64,000 bases of DNA from Citrus sinensis (taxonomy: Eukaryota > Streptophyta > Magnoliopsida > Sapindales > Rutaceae), in NCBI RefSeq assembly GCF_022201045.2, contig NC_068564.1:2604001-2668000 (forward strand), given 5' to 3'. The position numbers and the translations under genes were made by a program. The notes beneath the pieces were generated by a model. It worked only from the letters and a program-made list of their open reading frames with translations. It was not told where the DNA came from and did not search any database. Positions 1,233 to 47,656 of this stretch are shown piece after piece. Position 1 is the stretch's first letter. Each line of letters begins with the position of its first letter.

Positions 1233-1237
1233 ATTAG
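1233..1237. repeat. Target-site duplication, left copy (ATTAG)
   Basis: The five bases ATTAG abut the left LTR and recur immediately after the right LTR at 13776-13780. A 5-bp duplication is normal for Ty3/gypsy integrases and fixes both element ends. Confidence 0.95.
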
Positions 1238-2623
1238 TGTTGTGCAAATTTTAATGTACTCGCAAGCGCACGAATCTATTGTAGTATAGATCTATGGTGA
1301 CGAGTGTCGATCCCACGAGGAGGTGGATTTTAATTGTGTATAGAATTAATTTTGTAAATGGGTTGTTGGATTTATGGTGGAAATGATTTGGTATATGCTA
1401 AAACTTAAATTAAAATGGCGAGAATAAATTGTAAAATTGGAATTGCAATGGCGAGAATAAATTGAAGATAATTCTATTGAAATGACGTACTTGGGTATCT
1501 GGATCCGTATCAACATGCATCATGGGCTAAATAATCCGTATTAATGCCAATTAAATCATGAGGGGGGAATCCACACCTCATGAACCACGCTCTAATCAAT
1601 ATGGTGCTAAGGGCTTATCGTGCCAAATAATAATAACCTTATACTAGAGAGCCGGTGTAACCAAGGCGGTATCTAGACAAGACTATTATTATTTGTCGAC
1701 GAGAAGTCAAAACATCCACAAAAATTAGAGGGGAAGAGAAAATAAATTTACCAAATTAAGCCCATGACACATGTTGAGACTTCACCTTCAACCCAAGCTT
1801 GAAAGAAAATTAGCCACTCATAGTTGAACTAGGGGCAAAATAGGAATTTATTAAAATACGAAGAAAATACAAGATGGAGAGGGAATTACAGAAAATGGAT
1901 TCCAAAAATGGATTCAGAGATATCAAATTAGGGGGGGGAGGCCCCCTTTTTATAGATACATGGAGTAAATCATGGCCATCGGATTAAAAACAGTTTGGAC
2001 GCTCAGGATTGCGCCACGTCATCAGTCAACAGTCCACGGTTTGACCACGCGGATGAACAGTAACACGGTTTGACTCGACTTTGAACAGTAACGCGGTTTG
2101 ACCCGGATGAACAGTAACGCGGTTTGGTTGAAAATAATCCTGTGTGATGCATGCACCGTACGCGAGATTTTTCGTCCACTGATATGCTGCCACGTCACCA
2201 TCAACAGTACATAAGAATTTTAGTCCAACAGGATCGTGACACCTCATCAGTCAATGCCACATCATCGGTCAATGCCACGTCATCATCCGTTTATGTGAAC
2301 AGTGTCGTGAACAGTAACGTATACAGTACCGTACACGTGAATAGTACCGTACATGTGAATAGTGCCATTTTTCCTTTTATGCTCCTCCTAAGGTTTTCGA
2401 CCGTCCTGAGTTCAAAAGTGATGTCCGTTTTGCCGTCTGATCTCTCCTTTATTGTGAAATGACTATAATGCCCCTAAAATACATAAAATACTTAATTAAA
2501 ATAAAACACATGTAATTAAATCACAAGAAGGTTAAATATATAACAGTAAGGGTTGTTAGTAAGACTTAAAATGTAAAATGACGGTTTTCTCCTTTATAAA
2601 TATGCATTTTCTAACACTCAACA
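1238..2623 (-). repeat. LTR, left copy (the element's 3' LTR)
   Basis: 1,386 bp, with ends TGTTGTGC and CTCAACA on the plus strand. It matches 12390-13775 base for base as far as I can follow, including the eight-G run. Short frames inside it are artefacts of repeated GAACAGTA-type motifs and are not genes. Confidence 0.95.
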
Positions 2624-2635
2624 CACCCCCCAACC
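2624..2635 (-). other. Polypurine tract of the retrotransposon
   Basis: Read on the minus strand the bases touching the 3' LTR are GGTTGGGGGGTG, immediately before the LTR start TGTTGAG. This G-rich run is in the position where plus-strand DNA synthesis is primed. Confidence 0.8.
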
Positions 2636-4540
2636 AGCTTATTGCTAGTCCCTAGCAAATAAAGCGAAAATAAAATTCAAATTCAAAATATATATATATT
2701 TTTTTTTAATAGAAACACTCGTATTTATTCCATCAGATTAATGATAGCAATCAAATAAAAGTATAAGCATTATCTCCAGTCTAAAGCAACATCACACCCA
2801 CATCAACCATCCACATGAATTAGCCCAGTAGACTTTGTTTTAGCTACTCTCAAGAATGACATGTCAAACCCCAAAATCTCACTGGAAGTAGTGACACTCT
2901 CACAAATAGATTAATCCCAATAAAAATAGTCACTCCAATGAATGGTAATTGAGAGAGAAAATAATAAAGAAGTGATATCACATGCTCTCACCAAGATGAA
3001 ATAAATATGCCCTCAGCTTAGAAATAATACGATCTCAAGTCAAATAAAATGTTAGTCAACCCACTTTATTTATCTTTTTTTTTTTTTTTTAATTATGCAT
3101 CACTACATCTTTTTAGCCCATATAACTAGCTTCTACTTCGGACTATAGTTCCCTAAAATCAAGAAGGACTTTTATTAGGACGTAACGTAGGCTAGGGACA
3201 TGGTTAACAAAGAAGGGAAATAAGGAAAACAAAGTGTATGTTTGAGAAAAATGCAGAGAATTTTTTTTTTTTTTTGGAAGTTGCAAGGTGGATTTCACCT
3301 ATTTTTATTCTTTTGAAACAACAACTTTTGTTTTTGTTTTGTTTTTTTTTTTTTTGCTTTTATTTGGCATAACTTCACTGAACAAAATAATTATTTACAT
3401 TTTCTCAAACATAAATAGGTGATGGAACTTATAAGACATCGGGTAATACTCCAAATCGGAGTGGGTCAAGATGATAAGTTGACAAAGAAAATGTTTTTTT
3501 TTTTTTTTTTTTTAAAGGCTCAAAAGGGTTAACTATGGATATTTAATAAAAGGGATGGCTAGAAAGGCTCAAACGGATCAAAGATGGCCTTTCCATCGTC
3601 TTTTAGGGCTCTGAATAACCTTCCATATCTACTAGTTAGATGGGCCTCCAAATGTAGCAACACACTCTTTTTTCTTTTTTTTTATTTTACAAATTTATTT
3701 TTTAAGGGTTAACTCAAAAGTAATTTAGAGATCGTGTATAAAATAATAAACTGCTAAGATGTATAAAGAGTGGGCAAAAGGGTTATTCTCCAAGAAAAAT
3801 AATAGGCTCAAAAACTCACTTGGTACTTATTATGACATTTTCATTCCTTCAAGCAACTCACATTTGTCTCCGACATCAACATGTAAAGTAGCAAACATAG
3901 CGTAACATCACTTAAGACCAAAGATAATACAAATACTAAAATTTGAAATTAATCATGTCATCCAATGTTAAAACAAATCACACATTTTTTTTTTTTTAAA
4001 AAAAAACATTCTACCTCCCAACCTATTCTAAACATAAAAAAGAAAAAAATATACATGCAGAAATGTGAAAATGATGTAGAAAAATTAATTTAGAAAAGTT
4101 ACATTTAAAATGATAGAAAAGAAAATGATTTTTTTATTATTTTTTTTAAAGAAGATGCGTTTCTAGAGGAACTACACTCCATATTCAGCCATCTTCGACT
4201 CAAAAGTTGGAAAATGTATATTTATAGAGGAGAAATTAAAGAAGAAAAATAAACATAAACACATAATAAAGAAAAAGAAAATGTCTGAATTTTTTTTTTT
4301 TTTATAAACGATGAAGATGCGTTTCTAGAGTCACTACACTCCATATTCAGCCATCTTCAACACAAAAAGTTAGCAACAGTTAGTTTCTACAACAAAAATT
4401 AGTAAAAACTTAACCAAAATTCCACAATTGTCGACTATTCCCTCCCCCCAACCAGAACTAAACATTGTCCTCAATGTTTGAAAGGAAAGAAGTAGAGTTT
4501 AGAAGACATCACCTGGGTGGTGCAACACAGAAGAAAATAT
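2636..4540 (-). other. Non-coding 3' region of the retrotransposon
   Basis: About 1.9 kb between the LOG-like frame and the polypurine tract, with no frame of useful length. It contains many T or A homopolymers (for example near 3081, 3261, 3345, 3495 and 4290). It also contains a near-identical short segment present twice (4151-4198 and 4313-4359). It probably forms the 3' untranslated part of the element RNA. Confidence 0.7.
4151..4359 (-). repeat. Duplicated stem-loop segment in the element's 3' region
   Basis: The segment bounded by GAAGATG and CATCTTC, with CTACACTCCATATTCAGCC inside, occurs at about 4151-4198 and again at 4313-4359. The bounding heptamers are reverse complements and could pair. 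On the minus strand both copies contain the same mini-frame ATG to TAG encoding MAEYGV. Function unknown. Confidence 0.6.
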
Positions 4541-5209
4541 TTATAGGCGGAGAGTTAAATCTAATTTGTACTTCTTACTGCTGCTACTGTTACCATCATT
4601 ATTTGGACGCTCCAACACGAAGGTCCAGGGGTCTGGCTCCGGTCTATAAGCTTGTAACAGATCAAGTAGCTCATTAGCAGTGTGAGCACAAATAAAGAGT
4701 TTTTTCACATTAGCGGGAATGAAATAGTTTTTTATTGCATGGTTAAGAAATGCGATAAAGCCATCATAAAAGTTATTGACATTTAACAAACCGATGGGTT
4801 TTTGGTGGATGTGCAGATGGGCCCAAGATGCTAGCGTGATAAGTGCCTCTAGTGTTGCAAGATCTCCTGGAAGGAAAATAAAAGCATCAGCATGATTAAG
4901 CATTTCAGTTATTCTTTCTTGCATACCTGAGACGACTAACTCTTCTCCAGTTGATGAGTCAGACGAACTGCCCAATGGTTTTAAGACTCTTGGGATGATG
5001 CCTAACACTTGACTTCCTCTGATAAAAGCTGCTTCTGAGACCATTTTTGATAACCCTCGATTACCTCCTCCATACACCAAGTGTAATTTTCTCGCTGCTA
5101 TGCTTCGACCAAGATCTATGGCTGCCTCAACGAACTCTTTATGTTTGCCATAGGTAAATCCAGAAAGCACACAAATGTTCTTGAATTGTCTATTGGGAGT
5201 AGCTGCCAT
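4541..5209 (-). CDS. LOG-like cytokinin nucleoside 5'-monophosphate phosphoribohydrolase captured by the retrotransposon
   Basis: 222 residues from the start at 5209. An upstream in-frame ATG at 5380 would add 57 residues unlike the family, so I prefer MAATPNRQ. Alignment with plant LONELY GUY proteins runs nearly end to end: FKNICVLSG at the N-terminus, VYGGGNRGL in place of the usual VYGGGSVGL, GSQVLGIIP, MQERITEM holding the arginine thought catalytic, LPGDLATLEAL over the LPGGYGTLEE motif, and KPIGLLNV. LOG enzymes release free cytokinin base from its ribotide. Genomic LOG genes have several introns. This copy has none, which suggests capture from mRNA. The glutamate of the PGGxGTxxE motif is kept but two glycines are replaced (GG to GD, G to A) and the RK pair is RI, so activity is uncertain. 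The frame is intact and in sense with gag-pol. Confidence 0.85.
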   Translation of the reverse strand: MAATPNRQFKNICVLSGFTYGKHKEFVEAAIDLGRSIAARKLHLVYGGGNRGLSKMVSEAAFIRGSQVLGIIPRVLKPLGSSSDSSTGEELVVSGMQERITEMLNHADAFIFLPGDLATLEALITLASWAHLHIHQKPIGLLNVNNFYDGFIAFLNHAIKNYFIPANVKKLFICAHTANELLDLLQAYRPEPDPWTFVLERPNNDGNSSSSKKYKLDLTLRL

Positions 5210-5529: not shown

Positions 5530-6087
5530 CTATGGGTCGAGGATAGGCTTCCTATCCAGTTTTCTTATAAACTGGCAAACAGGGTCGTTTATAGTCAGAT
5601 TCCCGAGACTATATCGTGCATGCTTTTTCTGGAATAACGGCCATAACTGGAGAATCGCTCCTTGCACATATCCACTGGGATGCGTTTCAAGAGACAAAAG
5701 GATATCATCCAATGACTCCTTATTCAAGCCATCCCTAATGAATTGAATCTTATCTTCCCTGTTATCAGACACCATTCCTAAAGAACATGGGTTTTTATTG
5801 CAACTCATTCTGGCACACTTATGACAAGCAACAGAAATTCTTCGAGCTCGTCGTTTTCTTGCATAATTTCCTTTACCACAACCAGGCATGTATGCAATAA
5901 ATTTTGGAGGTAACTCACCTGCCGATCGTACTTTAGCCTCGATTAACCAACGGATGTCAGCAGGTATGTTATTCCTCATGAGTAATCGCATGCGTTCGGA
6001 CCGAGCTTTATAGATCGTAAGGAGGGCATTCTGAGGAAGTGAAGGGAATCGCTTGTGAAGCTTCGCTAGAATCTCGTTTCTGTCCAT
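5530..6087 (-). CDS. Unidentified 185-aa retrotransposon frame with a cysteine cluster
   Basis: Intact frame between the 91-aa frame and the LOG-like gene, in the sense of the element. I recognise no family. The N-terminal part is rich in basic and hydrophobic residues (DRNEILAKLHKRFPSLP). The middle holds a very basic run (ARKRRARRIS) followed at once by CHKCARMSCNKNPC, a close set of four cysteines plus a histidine that could bind zinc and contact nucleic acid. The C-terminal part (QLWPLFQKKHARYSLG) is soluble-looking. There is no signal peptide or membrane segment, so it does not resemble an envelope protein. It may be an accessory nucleic-acid-binding protein or another captured host fragment. 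Confidence 0.5.
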   Translation of the reverse strand: MDRNEILAKLHKRFPSLPQNALLTIYKARSERMRLLMRNNIPADIRWLIEAKVRSAGELPPKFIAYMPGCGKGNYARKRRARRISVACHKCARMSCNKNPCSLGMVSDNREDKIQFIRDGLNKESLDDILLSLETHPSGYVQGAILQLWPLFQKKHARYSLGNLTINDPVCQFIRKLDRKPILDP

Positions 6088-6228: not shown

Positions 6229-6504
6229 TTAAAATCGTCCTCTTATTGAATTTACCTCAAGCTCCAACTGGATGTCGTAAACACTTCTCTCAATGTCTCT
6301 GAGTTGGTGTTCTAAACCCTCAACATAGGCTACTAACTCTGGTGGTTGTAGAGCCCAAATGCGATGTGTTTTACAAAATTGAATCTGTCTTTTGAGATGA
6401 GTTTTGACACGTTGAAGTGGTTTAAGAATGTTCAGGAGGAACGGTCTAAGTATGAGACTCATGATTAAAAATGATAAGAGAAAACTTAATGGTAAAATAA
6501 ACAC
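6229..6504 (-). CDS. Unidentified 91-aa retrotransposon frame with an N-terminal membrane segment
   Basis: Starts MFILPLSFLLSFLIMSLILR, a strongly hydrophobic stretch of about 20 residues that could be a membrane anchor or signal sequence. A basic and then charged, heptad-like region follows (LVAYVEGLEHQLRDIERSVY), consistent with a short coiled coil. It lies 86 bp downstream of the integrase frame, the place where Athila elements often keep an env-like frame, but it is far too short for a complete envelope-type protein. It could be a remnant or a small accessory protein. No homologue recognised. Confidence 0.4.
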   Translation of the reverse strand: MFILPLSFLLSFLIMSLILRPFLLNILKPLQRVKTHLKRQIQFCKTHRIWALQPPELVAYVEGLEHQLRDIERSVYDIQLELEVNSIRGRF

Positions 6505-6590: not shown

Positions 6591-7262
6591 TCAATTCAAA
6601 TTTGGTGGGTCACTCAAATTTATCTCGATGTCTTCTCCATGTGGTTGGTATTCTAGATATGACTTTAATCTTTGACCATTAACTTTAAATGTGACACCGT
6701 TCTTTGGGTCCTTAATTTCAATTGCCCCATGTGGAAAAACAGTATGAACAATAAATGGGCCAGACCAACGAGAGCGTAACTTACCTGGGAACAGGTGCAA
6801 GCGAGAATTGAATAAAAGCACTTTCTGACCTGGAGTGAAAGATTTTCTCATAATGTGCTTGTCATGAAAGACTTTCATTCGTTGCTTGTAAATCTTGGCA
6901 TTTTCGTATGCATCATTGCGAATTTCTTCAAGTTCTGCCAGCTGTAATCTTCTTTCTGAGCTGGCTTGCTGCATGTCAAAATTGAATTTCTTGATGGCCC
7001 AATATGCACGATGCTCGAGTTCCACAGGTAGGTGGCAAGCTTTTCCATACACTAGCCTGTAGGGTGACATCCCAATCGGGGTCTTGAAAGCCGTTCTATA
7101 TGCCCATAATGCATCATCAAGTCTTAATGACCAATCTTTCCTGTCTGGCCTCACCGTTTTTTCTAATATGTGCTTTATTTCTCGATTGGAGATCTCAACT
7201 TGGCCACTGGTTTGCGGATGATACGGGGTCGCCACTTTGTGTGTGATTGAATACTTTGTCAA
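6591..7262 (-). CDS. Integrase C-terminal part, out of frame with gag-pol
   Basis: Continues the integrase of the main frame after a shift of reading frame. It contains [18 protein letters not shown], which holds the catalytic glutamate of the D,D-35-E core, then the typical gypsy segment [20 protein letters not shown] and a C-terminal domain ([25 protein letters not shown]) that binds DNA. The listed ATG is internal. Similarity to integrase extends upstream of it to about 7345, where the shift falls in an A-run (minus strand). In this copy the product cannot be joined to the upstream half without a translational frameshift. Confidence 0.85.
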
Positions 7263-7302
7263 AAGTGCTTTGAATGCTTTGTTACAAAAGTGGGCACCAC
7301 CA

Positions 7303-10300
7303 TCACTGATTATTGCTCGAGGGAATCCAAAGCGTGAGACAATGTTGTTTTTTCAAAAATCCTATCACCACCTTGTGATCATTGGTTCTACATGGAATTG
7401 CTTCTATCCATTTTGAGACGTAGTCAACACCAACCAATATGTATTGATGGCCAAAAGAAGGGGGAAAGGGTCCCATGAAGTCGATACCCCATACGTCAAA
7501 AATCTCAACCACTAAAATTGGATTTAGTGGCATCATGTTCCTTCGTGTAATGCTCCCCATTCGTTGACACCTATCACATGAAGAACAAAAAGTGTAAGCG
7601 TCTCGAAATAGTGTTGGCCAATAGAAACCACATTGTAAAACTTTAGTCGCTGTTTTCTTAGCACTGAAATGGCCTCCACAAGCTTGTTCATGGCAGAATG
7701 AAATGATATTCTGAATTTCACTTTCTGGGACACATCGTCTAACAATTTGATCCGCACAATACTTGAACAAATACGGGTCATCCCAAAAGAAATTCTTTAT
7801 CTCTGCAAAGAATTTAGCCTTGTCTTGCTTGGTCCAATGCTCTGGAAGTTTACCTGTAACAAGATAATTAACTATATCAGCATACCAAGGTAATACTTCC
7901 ACACTCATTAATTGTTCATCTGGAAATGACTCATTTAATGGTAATTGTTCTATAATTGTGTCAAAATGGAGACGAGAGAGGTGGTCCGCCACAACATTTT
8001 CTGTCCCTTTTTTATCTTTGAATTCCAAGTCAAATTCCTGCAAAAGTAACACCCAACGAATTAGTCTGGCTTTTGCATCTTTCTTTGTGAGAAGATATTT
8101 AAGAGCAGCATGATCTGTGAATATAATTATTTTACAACCAATGAGATATGATCGAAATTTTTCCAATGCAAACACTATTGCTAGCATTTCTTTTTCAGTA
8201 GTTGAATAGTTCAACTGTGCATCATTCAATGTCATACTAGCATAGTAAATAACATGGGGAATTCGATCAACTCTTTGTCCTAATACTGCTCCTACTGCAT
8301 AATCAGATGCATCACACATTAGCTCAAATGGTAAGTTCCAGTTTGGGGCCTGAATGATGGGTGATGATGTCAACAACTGTTTTAATTTTTCAAACGCCAT
8401 AAGACATGAATCATTAAAGATAAAAGGTACATCCTTAGCAAGTAAATTGCATAAGGGTCTAGAAACTTTGCTAAAATCTTTAATGAAACGTCTATAGAAA
8501 CCAGCATGCCCAAGGAAAGATCTTACTTCTCTGACTGTTTTGGGTGGAGGAAGATTAGAAATGAGATCCACCTTGGCTTTGTCAACCTCAATACCTTTGC
8601 TCGAAATGATGTGACCGAGAACAATACCTTGTTTTACCATAAAATGGCACTTCTCCCAATTTAAGACCAAATTCTTCTCGATACATCTCTGCAGAACTAG
8701 CGTTAGATGATGTAAACATTGATCAAACGAGTCACCAAAGACAGAAAAGTCATCCATAAAGACTTCAAGGAATCGTTCAACCATATCAGAAAAAATGCTC
8801 AACATGCATCGTTGAAATGTAGCAGGTGCATTACATAATCCAAATGGCATTCTCCTATATGCAAATGTGCCAAAAGGGCAAGTGAAAGTAGTTTTCTCTT
8901 GATCTTTTGGTGCTATGGGAATCTGATTATATCCTGAGTAACCATCTAGAAAGCAATAAAATTCATGGCCTGCTAATCTATCAAGCATTTGATCAATAAA
9001 TGGTAAAGGAAAATGGTCTTTACGTGTGACAGAATTTAATTTTCTATAATCAATGCATACACGCCATCCTGTAGTTACTCTAGTTGGTATCAATTCATTA
9101 TCGGCATTCGTAACTACTGTGACTCCTGACTTTTTGGGGACAACTTGTACAGGACTGACCCATGAACTATCAGAAATGGGGTAAATGATACCTGCATCTA
9201 ATAGCTTAAGGACTTCAGTTCTAACCACTTCTTTCATATTAGGATTTAACCGACGTTGCATTTCCCTAGTAGATTTAGCATTTTCATCAAGGTGAATGTA
9301 ATGCATGCAGTCTACTGGGTTTATACCTTTGATGTCTGCTATGGTCCATCCTAATGCCCCTTTATGCTCTTTTAAAACATCCAACAACTTACCTTTTTGT
9401 TCGTCATTGAGGGATGATGAGATGATTACCGGCAGAGTGCTTTCTTCTCCCAAAAACGCATATTCCAAAGTGTTGGGCAATGGTTTGAGCTCGAGTTTCG
9501 GTGGTGATTCTGATGATGGAATGAGTTGCTTCTCTGATGGTGCTAGTTGTTCAACTCTTGACTTCCATTTATTAGTGTCCATAGATGGTGCTGAGTCAAG
9601 CAGGGCATTGACCTCTTCGACCGATCTGTCAATATCAAAATCAAAACCAAAGTGAGTTAAGCATGTCTGTAAAGGATCATCACTAAGGTTTGAAACAAAA
9701 GTGTCATCAACTAATGCTTCTATTAAATCCACATCAACAATTCCATCATCTGCACTGTGAGGTTGTTTGGCAATGTTGAAAATGTTTAGCTCCATAGTCA
9801 TGTTGCCGAAGGACAACTGCATATTTCCAGTCCTGCATTGAATGTGAGCATCCGCAGTTGCCAAGAAAGGTCGGCCTAGAATAATGGGGATGTGCTTCCT
9901 TGAATCCTGTATTGGTTGAGTGTCAATTACAATGAAATCAACAGGAAAATAAAACTTGTCTACCTGGATAAGCACGTCCTCCACAATACCACGAGGTATT
10001 TTCGTGGACCGATCTGCAAGTTGTAACACCACTGGAGTTGGGTGTAATTCTCCCAGTCCAAGTTTCACAAACACAGAGTAAGGCAATAAATTTACACTAG
10101 CTCCTAAATCCAACAAAGCATTCTCAATTGTGTGGTTCCCTATACTACATGAGATAGTGGGGGAGCCTGGGTCTTTGCATTTTAAAGGAATTTTATGTTG
10201 GAGTATAGAACTAACGTTTTCTGTTAAAAATGCCTTCTTTTGAACATGCATATTTCTCTTTTTAGTACACAAATCTTTAAGAAACTTGGCATAAGATGGA

Positions 10301-12042
10301 ACTTGCTTTATAGCATCAAGTAAAGGGATGTTAACACTTACCTGTTTGAAGATTTCGAGAATCTCACCTGTAGATTTTCCCTTTTTTCCTTTCGCTAACC
10401 TCTGAGGAAATGGAGCTTTGGGAACGTATTCTCGTGGGTTGGCTTCTTCTCTCTCCTCCGGTGGTGAGTCCTCAACGTTCACAGGTACAATTTGATTTTC
10501 CTTTGTCACCGGCATCTCCACTTTGTTGTCGATTTCTTTTCCTTTTCGCAAGGTCATTATTGCTTTGACCTCTCCATGCTGCTGTGGTGAACTGGTACTT
10601 GCTTCATGTACTCCTTTAGGATTAGGCACTGGTTGACTTGGAAACTTGCCTTTCTCAACAGTCATTGCCAAGGTCTGAACTGAAGAAGCAAGTTGTCCCA
10701 CCATCTTCTCGAGGCTTGAAACTGATTGGGCTTGTGAATTGAAGCCTGCTCTCAACTCATTTCGTAGTCCATCAATGGTGCGGTTCTGTTGCTCAATCGT
10801 GGAGTGAGTAACATTCCTGAAATTCTGGAATGCATCCTCCCATGGTCTAGGTTGAGAGTGGTTCTGGTTCTGATTGTATGGTCTAAATGGTGGTTGAGAG
10901 GCTTGAGAAATTTGAGGAATTGGTTGCATTGGTGGAGCTGGAGCTGCTGGTCCATTCTGTTGGAGTCCTTGAGACCATGAAAAATTGGGGTGGTCTCTCC
11001 ATCCAGGGTTATATGTGTTGGAGTATGGGTTGTAATTCGATGGTTTTCTCATTACACCTATGGCATTGGCTTGATCTGAGTATGAGTCATGGTCATGTGG
11101 CTCTGTTGATTTAGCAGTCGATAATGATGCTATTTGTCGAGAGAGACCTTCAATTATCGCTTTGACTTCTTTAATTTCTGAACTTGATTCGCCAATTTGA
11201 ACCTCATTCACTCCTTTAATTCTTCTAGTAGTCCTGAGTGATCGACTCCGTTGTTGGGAATTATCTGCTTGTCGCTGGAAGAATTCCCAAATTTCTGATG
11301 CACTTTTTGACATTAGCTCTCCTCCACTTGTTGCCATTAGCCATTCTTGCACATTTGGTAGTAATCCCTCCAAAAAGTATTGACATTGGTGCCATTTTTC
11401 GTACCCATGATGTGGACACTTCAAGAGTAGCCCATTAAATCGCTCCCATGTTTCAAAAAATTGCTCGTCCTCTCTCTGGGTAAACTCCGAGATTTCCCTG
11501 CGAATAGCATTGGTTTTATGCACTGGAAAATATTTATTTAAAAATTTTGTAACCATTTGTTCCCATGATGCAATGCTATTAGCAGGCAATGTATTAAGCC
11601 ATGAACGAGCTCTATCTTTTAAAGAAAATGGGAATAGTCTAAGTTTAACATCATCATCTGAAAAATTCTCATATTTGAATGTTTGACAAATGGCATGAAA
11701 ATCATTCAAATGATTATATGGATCCTCATTTTCTAGGCCATAAAATGTAGGGAGACAATTTAACACACTAGGTTTTAATTCAAAACTCCTAGCAGCTACA
11801 TTTGGGTATCTTATGCATGACGTGCTCAAATTAGCTAAGGGACTAAAATAGTCCTTAAATGGCCTCTCCTGTGGTGCTTGTAAATCCATTTTATTTTTAA
11901 CGTGTTTGTGTGTGCGAAGTGTTTTTTCTAATTCAAGGTCTATAGGTTCAAGATTAGGTAATAATGACCTACGACCATGCATGCAAAATAAATAAAAATA
12001 AAGATGCAAACAAAACAAAAAATAAAGATGGGAACAAAACAA
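7303..12042 (-). CDS. Gag-protease-reverse transcriptase-RNase H-integrase polyprotein (integrase truncated by frameshift)
   Basis: 1,579 residues in a single frame. The N-terminal third is gag ([18 protein letters not shown] onward, Retrotrans_gag type). No CCHC zinc knuckle is seen. Aspartic protease is marked by [12 protein letters not shown] and [13 protein letters not shown]. Reverse transcriptase shows [31 protein letters not shown] and the active-site FMDDF. RNase H has [16 protein letters not shown] and [10 protein letters not shown]. Integrase has the HHCC zinc finger ending CSSCDRCQ and the first catalytic aspartate in GIDFMGP. The frame then shifts near 7345-7350 at an A-run and stops at 7303, before the second catalytic aspartate. 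The first 20 residues before [10 protein letters not shown] are unlike gag, so translation probably begins at that internal methionine. Confidence 0.95.
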
Positions 12043-12365: not shown

Positions 12366-12383
12366 TCCCCGGCAACGGCGCCA
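12366..12383 (-). other. Primer binding site complementary to tRNA-Asp
   Basis: On the minus strand, six bases after the 5' LTR, the sequence is TGGCGCCGTTGCCGGGGA. It fits the 3' end of plant tRNA-Asp with its CCA tail, the usual primer of Athila-lineage elements. Confidence 0.9.
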
Positions 12384-13096
12384 AAAACTTGTTGTGCAAA
12401 TTTTAATGTACTCGCAAGCGCACGAATCTATTGTAGTATAGATCTATGGTGACGAGTGTCGATCCCACGAGGAGGTGGATTTTAATTGTGTATAGAATTA
12501 ATTTTGTAAATGGGTTGTTGGATTTATGGTGGAAATGATTTGGTATATGCTAAAACTTAAATTAAAATGGCGAGAATAAATTGTAAAATTGGAATTGCAA
12601 TGGCGAGAATAAATTGAAGATAATTCTATTGAAATGACGTACTTGGGTATCTGGATCCGTATCAACATGCATCATGGGCTAAATAATCCGTATTAATGCC
12701 AATTAAATCATGAGGGGGGAATCCACACCTCATGAACCACGCTCTAATCAATATGGTGCTAAGGGCTTATCGTGCCAAATAATAATAACCTTATACTAGA
12801 GAGCCGGTGTAACCAAGGCGGTATCTAGACAAGACTATTATTATTTGTCGACGAGAAGTCAAAACATCCACAAAAATTAGAGGGGAAGAGAAAATAAATT
12901 TACCAAATTAAGCCCATGACACATGTTGAGACTTCACCTTCAACCCAAGCTTGAAAGAAAATTAGCCACTCATAGTTGAACTAGGGGCAAAATAGGAATT
13001 TATTAAAATACGAAGAAAATACAAGATGGAGAGGGAATTACAGAAAATGGATTCCAAAAATGGATTCAGAGATATCAAATTAGGGGGGGGAGGCCC

Positions 13097-13106
13097 CCTT
13101 TTTATA
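13097..13106 (-). promoter_or_regulatory. TATA box of the 5' LTR
   Basis: Minus-strand TATAAAAAGG, about 670 bp into the LTR and followed by a G/C-rich block (CCCCCCCC run). It is the best core-promoter match in the LTR. The equivalent in the left LTR is 1945-1954. Confidence 0.65.
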
Positions 13107-13164
13107 GATACATGGAGTAAATCATGGCCATCGGATTAAAAACAGTTTGGACGCTCAGGATTGC

Positions 13165-13434
13165 GCCACGTCATCAGTCAACAGTCCACGGTTTGACCAC
13201 GCGGATGAACAGTAACACGGTTTGACTCGACTTTGAACAGTAACGCGGTTTGACCCGGATGAACAGTAACGCGGTTTGGTTGAAAATAATCCTGTGTGAT
13301 GCATGCACCGTACGCGAGATTTTTCGTCCACTGATATGCTGCCACGTCACCATCAACAGTACATAAGAATTTTAGTCCAACAGGATCGTGACACCTCATC
13401 AGTCAATGCCACATCATCGGTCAATGCCACGTCA
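13165..13434 (-). promoter_or_regulatory. Cluster of TGACGTGGC motifs in the LTR U3
   Basis: The plus-strand nonamer GCCACGTCA occurs at 13165-13173, 13341-13349 and 13426-13434, which is TGACGTGGC in the sense of the element, upstream of the TATA box. TGACG and ACGTGG cores are bound by plant bZIP factors of the TGA and G-box classes, which act in stress and hormone responses. Whether they work here is inference. Confidence 0.5.
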
Positions 13435-13515
13435 TCATCCGTTTATGTGAACAGTGTCGTGAACAGTAACGTATACAGTACCGTACACGTGAATAGTACC
13501 GTACATGTGAATAGT
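13203..13515 (-). repeat. GAACAGTA-type short repeats within the LTR
   Basis: Variants of GAACAGTAAC(A/G)CGGTTTGA occur three times at about 13206-13280. Further GAACAGT/GAATAGT variants lie at about 13449-13515, next to GTACAC/GTACATGTG motifs. The same array is in the left LTR. This imperfect array creates the spurious short frames in both LTRs. Confidence 0.7.
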
Positions 13516-13775
13516 GCCATTTTTCCTTTTATGCTCCTCCTAAGGTTTTCGACCGTCCTGAGTTCAAAAGTGATGTCCGTTTTGCCGTCTGATCTCTCCT
13601 TTATTGTGAAATGACTATAATGCCCCTAAAATACATAAAATACTTAATTAAAATAAAACACATGTAATTAAATCACAAGAAGGTTAAATATATAACAGTA
13701 AGGGTTGTTAGTAAGACTTAAAATGTAAAATGACGGTTTTCTCCTTTATAAATATGCATTTTCTAACACTCAACA

Positions 13776-13780
13776 ATTAG
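13776..13780. repeat. Target-site duplication, right copy (ATTAG)
   Basis: Matches 1233-1237 exactly and marks the pre-insertion site. Confidence 0.95.
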
Positions 13781-44815: not shown

Positions 44816-46149
44816 GGTAAAACTATAATATTCATGGTTATCTTCCTACGCAAAGTACTAACTACGTTCTCCTTTTCTAAACCAAACTCTAATTGTTGAA
44901 TTCGTATGTTAAAAAAAATAAAAATCTATGCACTATTTTTTTTTTTTTTGCAGCGTTTATATTTTATTAATAAAATGACGACATACTCATATGAGAATAA
45001 AAAAAATATAACAATGATTTTTTTTCTTCTCTGTCGTTGAAATTGAACTAGGTTTGTTGTTACTTATTGTAGTATAGTAGTAATCATGTCAACTAAAAAA
45101 AAAATTGATATAAAAAAAACTTTAAAAAAAATTTGAAAAAGATTTCTTAAAATATATATTACATTTGGTTCGCATTAAAAAATTTTGACTAGAAATTTTG
45201 CTGCCTTCCAAACGCTTTTCGGCCTGCCCCCGTCATTATGATCGGATTATTGACTATTGACCTTAAATTAACTATTAGCGGACAAAGATAAAAGGAAGGT
45301 TGGGACAAACATTTCAGTTCTTGTGAAAAAAAAAAGTAAAATTAAATTTATAAGCATTGATTTTTTATTAGTGATTTATTTATTTATTTTTATAGAAGTA
45401 GAGAGAGATTGACAAGTTAAAACAACTCAAGCATATAAAATTGGAGTTGCTGATTTAAACATCATTAAAAAAAATATTTCACAACATAATTGGAGGTAAA
45501 ACTATAATATTAATGGTTATGTTCCTACGCAAAGTACTAACCACGTTCTCCTTTTCTAAACCAAACTCTAATTGTTGAATTCGCATGTTAAAAAAAAAAT
45601 TCTATGCATTTTTTTTAGTAGCATTTATATTTTACTAATAAAATGACGATATACTCATTTGAGAATTGAAAAAATATAACAATGATTTTTTTCTTCCCTA
45701 TCGTTGAAGTTGAACTCGGTTTATTGTTATTTATGGTAGTTTAGTAGTAATCATGTCAACTAAAAAAACTATTGATACCGTAAAAAAAACTTTAAAAAGA
45801 TTTTTTAAAATATATATTACATTTAGTTCACATTAAAAAATTTTGGCTTGAAATTTTGCTGCCTAATGTCCAAACGGTTTCGGCCTGCCTCCGTCATTAT
45901 GATAGGATTATTGACTATTGACCTTAAATTAATTATTAGCGGACAAAGATAAAAGGAAGATCGGGTCAAACATTTCAGGTCTTGTGAAAAAAAAATGTAA
46001 AATTAAATTTAGAAGCACGTATAGATTGATTTTTTATTAGTTATTTGTTTATTTTTATAGAAGTAGATATAGATTGACAAGTTAAAACAACTCAAGCACA
46101 TAAAATTGGAGTTGCTCATTTAAACATCATTGGAAAAAATATTTCACAA
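44816..46149. repeat. Tandem duplication of about 670 bp
   Basis: Two copies, about 44816-45486 and 45495-46149, offset 679 bp. Landmarks in both are CCTACGCAAAGTACTAAC, CTTTTCTAAACCAAACTCTA, GGACAAAGATAAAAGGAAG and GTTGCT(G/C)ATTTAAACATCAT. Divergence is moderate, with many homopolymer-length changes. The content is unidentified. Confidence 0.85.
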
Positions 46150-47043: not shown

Positions 47044-47656
47044 GGTAAAAATTTATTTAATTCTTATATTTTGATTTTAATATCTGTTTATTCTTTATAT
47101 ATTTAAAAACACTTTAAAATATCTCTGTTATTAAATCATTTACACCCTTGCTAGTACTTTTCGTTCATTTTAACTTGTTTTTATAATATTACATTCTTAC
47201 AATAATGTTTCTTTTTTTTTACATTAATTAAAAAAATTAAGTTATCAATTTAACCCCAAGAAATAAAATAAAAACAAAAGGAACATATATTAATTTTTGT
47301 AGAGTATTTTGTTGAGGAGCTAATATATCCGTTTTTTATTAATGTCCAAAAAAATGAGTGATTATTTACAATATTAATTTTTGGACATACACTTGTTCCA
47401 CAAAAATTAATATACATTCTTTTTATTTTTATTTTATTTTTTGGAGTTAAATTGATAATTTAGTTTTTTTTCTTTTTATTAATGTAAAAAAAATATTATT
47501 GTGAGAGAATAAATTATAAAAGCAAAGCAAAATGAACAAAAAATAACGGTAGGAGTATCAATAGTTTAATGACAAGAATAATTTGAGGTATCTTTAAAAA
47601 TATAGAGAATAAATGGGCATTAACCTCATAATATATAGATTAAACGATCTTTTACT
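47044..47656. mobile_element. Foldback element with arms of about 280 bp
   Basis: The left arm, about 47044-47325, is matched in inverted orientation by about 47385-47656. Shared blocks include GTTCATTTT, TATCAATTTAAC(C/T)CCAA, AAATAAAATAAAAA, TATATTAATTTTTGT and TTTATTCT(T/C)TATAT. Arms look about 80 percent alike, with a loop of about 60 bp. No coding frame. A transcript would form a long hairpin. No target duplication was determined. Confidence 0.75.

Follow-up and report, generated by a model that had tools for sequence, protein, structure and literature searches.

A Ty3/gypsy retrotransposon of Citrus sinensis carries a LOG-family gene that is real, old and maintained, and the strongest constraint on the encoded protein falls on a C-terminal LxLxL tail. 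The protein is very probably not an ordinary cytokinin-activating LOG: its active-site motif is altered in a way that makes it a likely pseudoenzyme. The gene lies at positions 4541..5209, on the reverse strand, of the window, the stretch of 64,000 nucleotides analysed here.

The whole element is read on the reverse strand. The LTRs delimited by self-comparison (5' LTR, 12390..13775; 3' LTR, 1238..2623) are identical at 1386 of 1386 bases, so the insertion is recent. A 5-bp duplication, CTAAT in the sense of the element and ATTAG on the forward strand, borders it on both flanks (1233..1237 and 13776..13780). The primer binding site TGGCGCCGTTGCCGGGGA (12366..12383), a putative match to tRNA-Asp, lies 6 bases past the 5' LTR, and a G-rich polypurine-like stretch (2624..2633) precedes the 3' LTR. 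The gag-pol frame (7303..12042) encodes gag, protease, reverse transcriptase, RNase H and the zinc domain of integrase, and is broken in the integrase core: one frame stops at 7303 and the rest of the integrase region follows in a different open frame (6591..7262), in which Pfam at 1e-3 finds no family. The window copy as assembled thus has no open pol, and the element, described as complete in the initial annotation, is complete at its ends, in LTRs and target duplication, and incomplete in pol. The break (7262-7340) coexists with identical LTRs and might be a recent change or an error of the assembly, or other copies may have mobilised this one. Three frames, all on the strand of gag-pol, separate the integrase region from the 3' LTR: a 77-codon frame read by eye from the sequence (6229..6462), a 185-codon frame (5530..6087) in which a basic stretch is followed by four spaced cysteines and which weakly resembles carlavirus-type nucleic-acid-binding proteins, and the LOG-family gene. 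The initial annotation had seen an intact intronless LOG homologue of 222 residues, in sense between identical LTRs, and this description holds: the 222 codons and stop form an open frame that matches PF03641 at 97.6 bits against a threshold of 27. A second G-rich polypurine-like stretch lies about 90 bases past the LOG stop, at 4438-4453 on the same strand. Outside the element, at 44816-46149 and 47045-47655, the window has two further self-matches, one a direct repeat (about 0.67 kb, 87% identity) and the other inverted (0.6 kb, 69%).

Membership of the element in the Athila lineage is plausible. The lineage rule used here looks for the absence of a chromodomain and takes a second RNase H (aRH) as the mark of Tat (PMC6317226). 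Pfam matches in the element comprise reverse transcriptase, RNase H and integrase, with neither a chromodomain nor a second RNase H and with no family in the scanned end of the integrase. As in Athila, Calypso and Diaspora, there are frames past the integrase, the LTRs are long, and the primer site lies close to the LTR, at 6 bases against 5 in Diaspora (PMC1142308); like the sites of Diaspora and Calypso it may correspond to tRNA-Asp. The length of the element fits the mean of 11,324 bp given for Athila in a Citrus survey, where this is the gypsy lineage richest in complete elements. Unlike those relatives, the element has a LOG gene and a nucleic-acid-binding-like frame at the env position.

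The LOG gene is amplified together with the element, as the initial annotation had proposed. A search of the genome (300 Mb in 11 contigs) with the LOG frame gave at least 150 scored matches among 2114 first-look candidates, and P-G-D-x-A-T-x-E-A, written as a degenerate DNA pattern, is matched exactly at 839 places across the genome (430 forward and 409 reverse), its reversed control at none. Sought on a single exon, the canonical LOG motif matches once, and a shorter host-type pattern eight times. An LTR probe returned 2644 first-look candidates; among the 40 places listed for it, 25 lie close to a LOG match when compared by eye, at about 1.7-2.1 kb in 24 cases and about 2.9 kb in one, and the remaining 15 have no LOG neighbour among the matches listed. 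Four subfamilies were sampled: A, which includes the window copy, B (P0091-like), C, and D, whose locus as retrieved contains the LOG frame only. The window protein is identical to that of one further locus (L003). In all 21 copies checked in subfamilies A, B and C, from 80 element loci, LOG is preceded by the 185-codon frame, which rules out a chance nested insertion. Among the matches listed, near-identical named proteins come from Citrus x changshan-huyou and, in one case, from C. sinensis; in the best 120 of 763 and the best 120 of 556 protein matches all named entries are citrus and the others come from metagenome-type sources. A scan of viral contigs for relatives of the LOG frame found none.

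The presence of a LOG domain in Citrus gypsy elements is already known, although the initial annotation was aware of no described case. Gypsy consensus sequences from both C. sinensis and C. clementina were reported to include the YgdH domain, known elsewhere from LONELY GUY proteins, in agreement with Steinbauerova et al. 2011 as cited there, and the domain also appeared in gypsy of P. trichocarpa once a count filter was switched off, for which the same survey is the sole source (PMC9289625). Those Citrus elements share genus, superfamily and the domain as an extra frame with ours and are almost surely the same family; the active site, selection, tail and neighbouring frame are absent from the available part of their description. 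Among the papers listed by our literature search, none treats the active site, an EAR motif or a viral-type frame of LOG-carrying Citrus elements, and the words 'cytokinin' and 'lysine decarboxylase' do not occur in the text of two citrus retrotransposon surveys. Gypsy elements of Phalaenopsis with an AlkB m6A demethylase offer a parallel in that a captured plant enzyme domain is kept as an extra frame; the AlkB protein has activity in vitro, in contrast to the predicted inactivity of the element LOG (PMC9289625).

The protein belongs to the LOG family, and its active site is altered. The TIGR00730 subfamily model is matched at 124.9 bits against a threshold of 96.35, and among solved structures AtLOG3 is the best match (2a33, E 3.7e-45). 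The motif PGGYGTLEE of plant LOGs is replaced by PGDLATLEA at residues 114-122 (4844..4870, reverse strand), and PGGxGTxxE is absent from all 138 element proteins. The catalytic Glu122 is found in none of 37 aligned element proteins against 70 of 70 plant LOGs, and the phosphate-loop glycines are lost in the same 37-row alignment. Arg99 is retained in 34 of the 37 rows and Trp129 in all of them; because the pocket residues Arg99, Thr119, Glu121 and Trp129 are largely kept, binding of a ligand may persist. The predicted structure has the LOG (Rossmann-type) fold, in a model whose alignment includes 70 true LOGs that help set the fold and whose tail has pLDDT below 50; an earlier model built from element proteins alone was useless (pLDDT 39). 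The element protein thus resembles AtLOG3 and AtLOG8, plant cytokinin riboside 5'-monophosphate phosphoribohydrolases, in predicted fold, core length and PF03641, and differs from plant LOGs in lacking the catalytic glutamate, the phosphate-loop glycines and introns, in bearing the LDLTLRL tail, and in an identity to host-type LOGs of only about 34-38%. The changed motif makes it likely that cytokinin synthesis has been lost. The initial annotation had taken the gene for an active cytokinin-activating LOG amplified as cargo, a reading to which the homology, the predicted fold and the retained arginine lend some colour. The altered motif and the missing glutamate and glycines speak against it as the main interpretation, as does the NCBIfam cytokinin LOG equivalog model, which scores the protein at 91.4 bits where 300 are required and may miss plant enzymes too, and we regard an active enzyme as very unlikely.

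The gene would have originated by capture of a host LOG mRNA by the Ty3/gypsy element. Introns interrupt a host-type LOG gene of this genome but not the element frame, which fits such a capture. In a tree, nine element sequences cluster together with full support (100/100), but the branch leading to them measures 2.31 changes per site and draws a long-branch warning, and its length keeps the tree from placing the donor. A search of the genome with AtLOG3 for the donor gene returned element copies and did not find it.

Comparisons between subfamilies reveal purifying selection on the LOG frame, the outcome sought when dN/dS across copies was first proposed as a check. In six pairs formed by one copy from each subfamily (L002, L025, L033 and L082, with the stop codons of L025 skipped), dN/dS is 0.14-0.23 at dS of 0.47-1.05. 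Broken copies of subfamily B, seven compared with an eighth, give a pooled value of 0.78, as expected after insertion. Motif order supplied five A copies, of which two have an open frame, one contains a stop and two are frameshifted. The frameshifted copies were dropped, since their pair values are meaningless; the remaining three, compared with the window copy and with one another, yield six pairs with dN/dS of 0.19-0.48. The values of 0.031 within A and 0.143 within C, and the identical proteins that differ by 7-17 synonymous changes, are biased and constitute no proof, because these copies were chosen by protein score. Individual pairs reach 0.86-1.0 within C and 0.46-1.7 within B, which we read as decay after insertion. 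On the evidence of these alignments, single copies die and the LOG lineage is maintained. That the captured gene is a neutral passenger, copied without use, might be suggested by the three broken copies, with a stop or frameshift, among the five taken by motif order; the contrast between 0.14-0.23 across four subfamilies and 0.78 in broken copies leads us to reject this explanation as highly improbable.

The constraint is distributed unevenly along the protein. Over the same six between-subfamily pairs dN/dS is 0.168 in the core, 0.356 in the linker, 0.058 in the KKxxLDLTLRL tail and 0.043 in LDLTLRL alone, and synonymous changes are plain in the tail DNA across copies, so the constraint acts on the protein. 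The tail of the window copy, KKYKLDLTLRL (residues 212-222; 4544..4576, reverse strand), ends in LDLTLRL and fits the EAR consensus LxLxL. Of the 138 element proteins listed, 96 have the motif within their last eight residues, as against none of 120 plant LOGs, and the host-type LOG gene at L081 ends without the tail. Among the 42 element proteins that miss it, 31 end off the tail, two extend past it, and nine have a full tail with a substitution in the motif. The motif by itself proves little, being short and having a chance probability of 0.002 at a given position at 13% leucine. LxLxL is the most frequent EAR form and the C-terminus its most frequent location (PMC9956375); EAR motifs work through TOPLESS-type corepressors, and effectors of plant pathogens exploit them (PMC7446885, PMC8126959).

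By this reasoning we infer an EAR-type function for the tail, and tentatively, at somewhat less than even confidence in the mechanism as a whole, we favour an element-borne LOG pseudoenzyme that would serve as an adaptor for TOPLESS-type corepressors. With its active-site motif changed and cytokinin synthesis likely lost, the gene would be kept by selection as a folded, non-catalytic protein predicted to recruit TOPLESS-family corepressors through the conserved LxLxL tail, and the element would gain from it, perhaps through weaker host transcription or defence, to which the nucleic-acid-binding-like frame would contribute. The effectors HaRxL21 and Jsi1 provide an analogy, in that a TOPLESS-directed motif is found in a protein of a plant parasite; they belong to an oomycete and a fungus and have a reported interaction, unlike the element tail, for which one is suggested by sequence (PMC7446885, PMC8126959). 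Alternatively, the pseudoenzyme might have no EAR role, the LOG fold being kept for nucleotide binding or for mixed dimers with host LOGs that titrate cytokinin signalling, and the tail serving partner choice or stability. The constrained core, the predicted fold and the retention of Arg99 and Trp129 are in keeping with this. In CgLOG, moreover, the pocket forms where the two subunits of the dimer meet, with Glu125 and Trp129 contributed by the neighbouring subunit (PMC4979012), so that a mixed dimer could be disabled by one changed partner. The low identity to host-type LOGs makes mixed dimers less likely, however, and a new tail more constrained than the fold is left unexplained, so we hold this alternative to be a credible but unlikely one.

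The frame that precedes LOG is likely homologous, to judge by profile matches, to plant-virus nucleic-acid-binding proteins of the PF01623 and PF05515 families. Its four cysteines after the basic stretch are invariant in eight aligned members. The window copy matches PF01623 at E 0.0094 (16.3 bits, cut-off 20.9) and PF05515 at E 0.047 (14.1 bits, cut-off 23), and a subfamily C copy matches them at E 0.00036 and 0.00044; the database protein P0053 reaches 21.9 bits for PF01623, above the cut-off of 20.9, most members being at or under the curated Pfam cut-offs. At E 0.05 both families are matched by all eight members and by none of nine shuffles. Subfamilies A, B and C have all retained the frame, and comparison of A with B or C gives dN/dS of 0.22-0.25. 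Between a B and a C copy (L023 and L033) dS is 0.14 for this frame and 0.53 for LOG, which suggests recombination between subfamilies. Three citrus gene models (P0053, P0073 and P0082) join the frame and LOG into one protein, probably through annotation running across the spacer.

In carlaviruses and citrus mandariviruses, cysteine-rich proteins have been described as silencing suppressors and pathogenicity factors (PMC12172455). The two frames might be considered as a host-control module at the env position of Citrus Athila-like elements, made up of an RNA-virus-derived nucleic-acid-binding protein of the silencing-suppressor kind and a TOPLESS-recruiting LOG pseudoenzyme with a selected LxLxL tail, a proposal that we consider doubtful as it stands. 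The env position and the joint retention of the two frames would also suit a role internal to the element, in which the LOG-fold protein and its tail serve the particle, the RNA or the integration complex and have no host target. No known retroelement part is similar, however, and LOG is separate from gag-pol among the four frames scanned with Pfam; such a role seems rather unlikely.

Plant retrotransposons commonly carry extra frames. Whether such frames are functional is a question posed in print (PMC6317226), and the element LOG offers an answer at the level of sequence: an enzyme domain without its catalytic motif has long been kept, and selection is strongest on a short tail that is a new acquisition. 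This pattern opens a specific host interaction to testing. It also calls for caution with citrus database entries, since many of the proteins that bear the name 'cytokinin riboside 5'-monophosphate phosphoribohydrolase' are frames of retrotransposons and probably have no action on cytokinin. If the proposed two-gene module were true, the element would act as a pathogen with effectors rather than as a bare genomic parasite.
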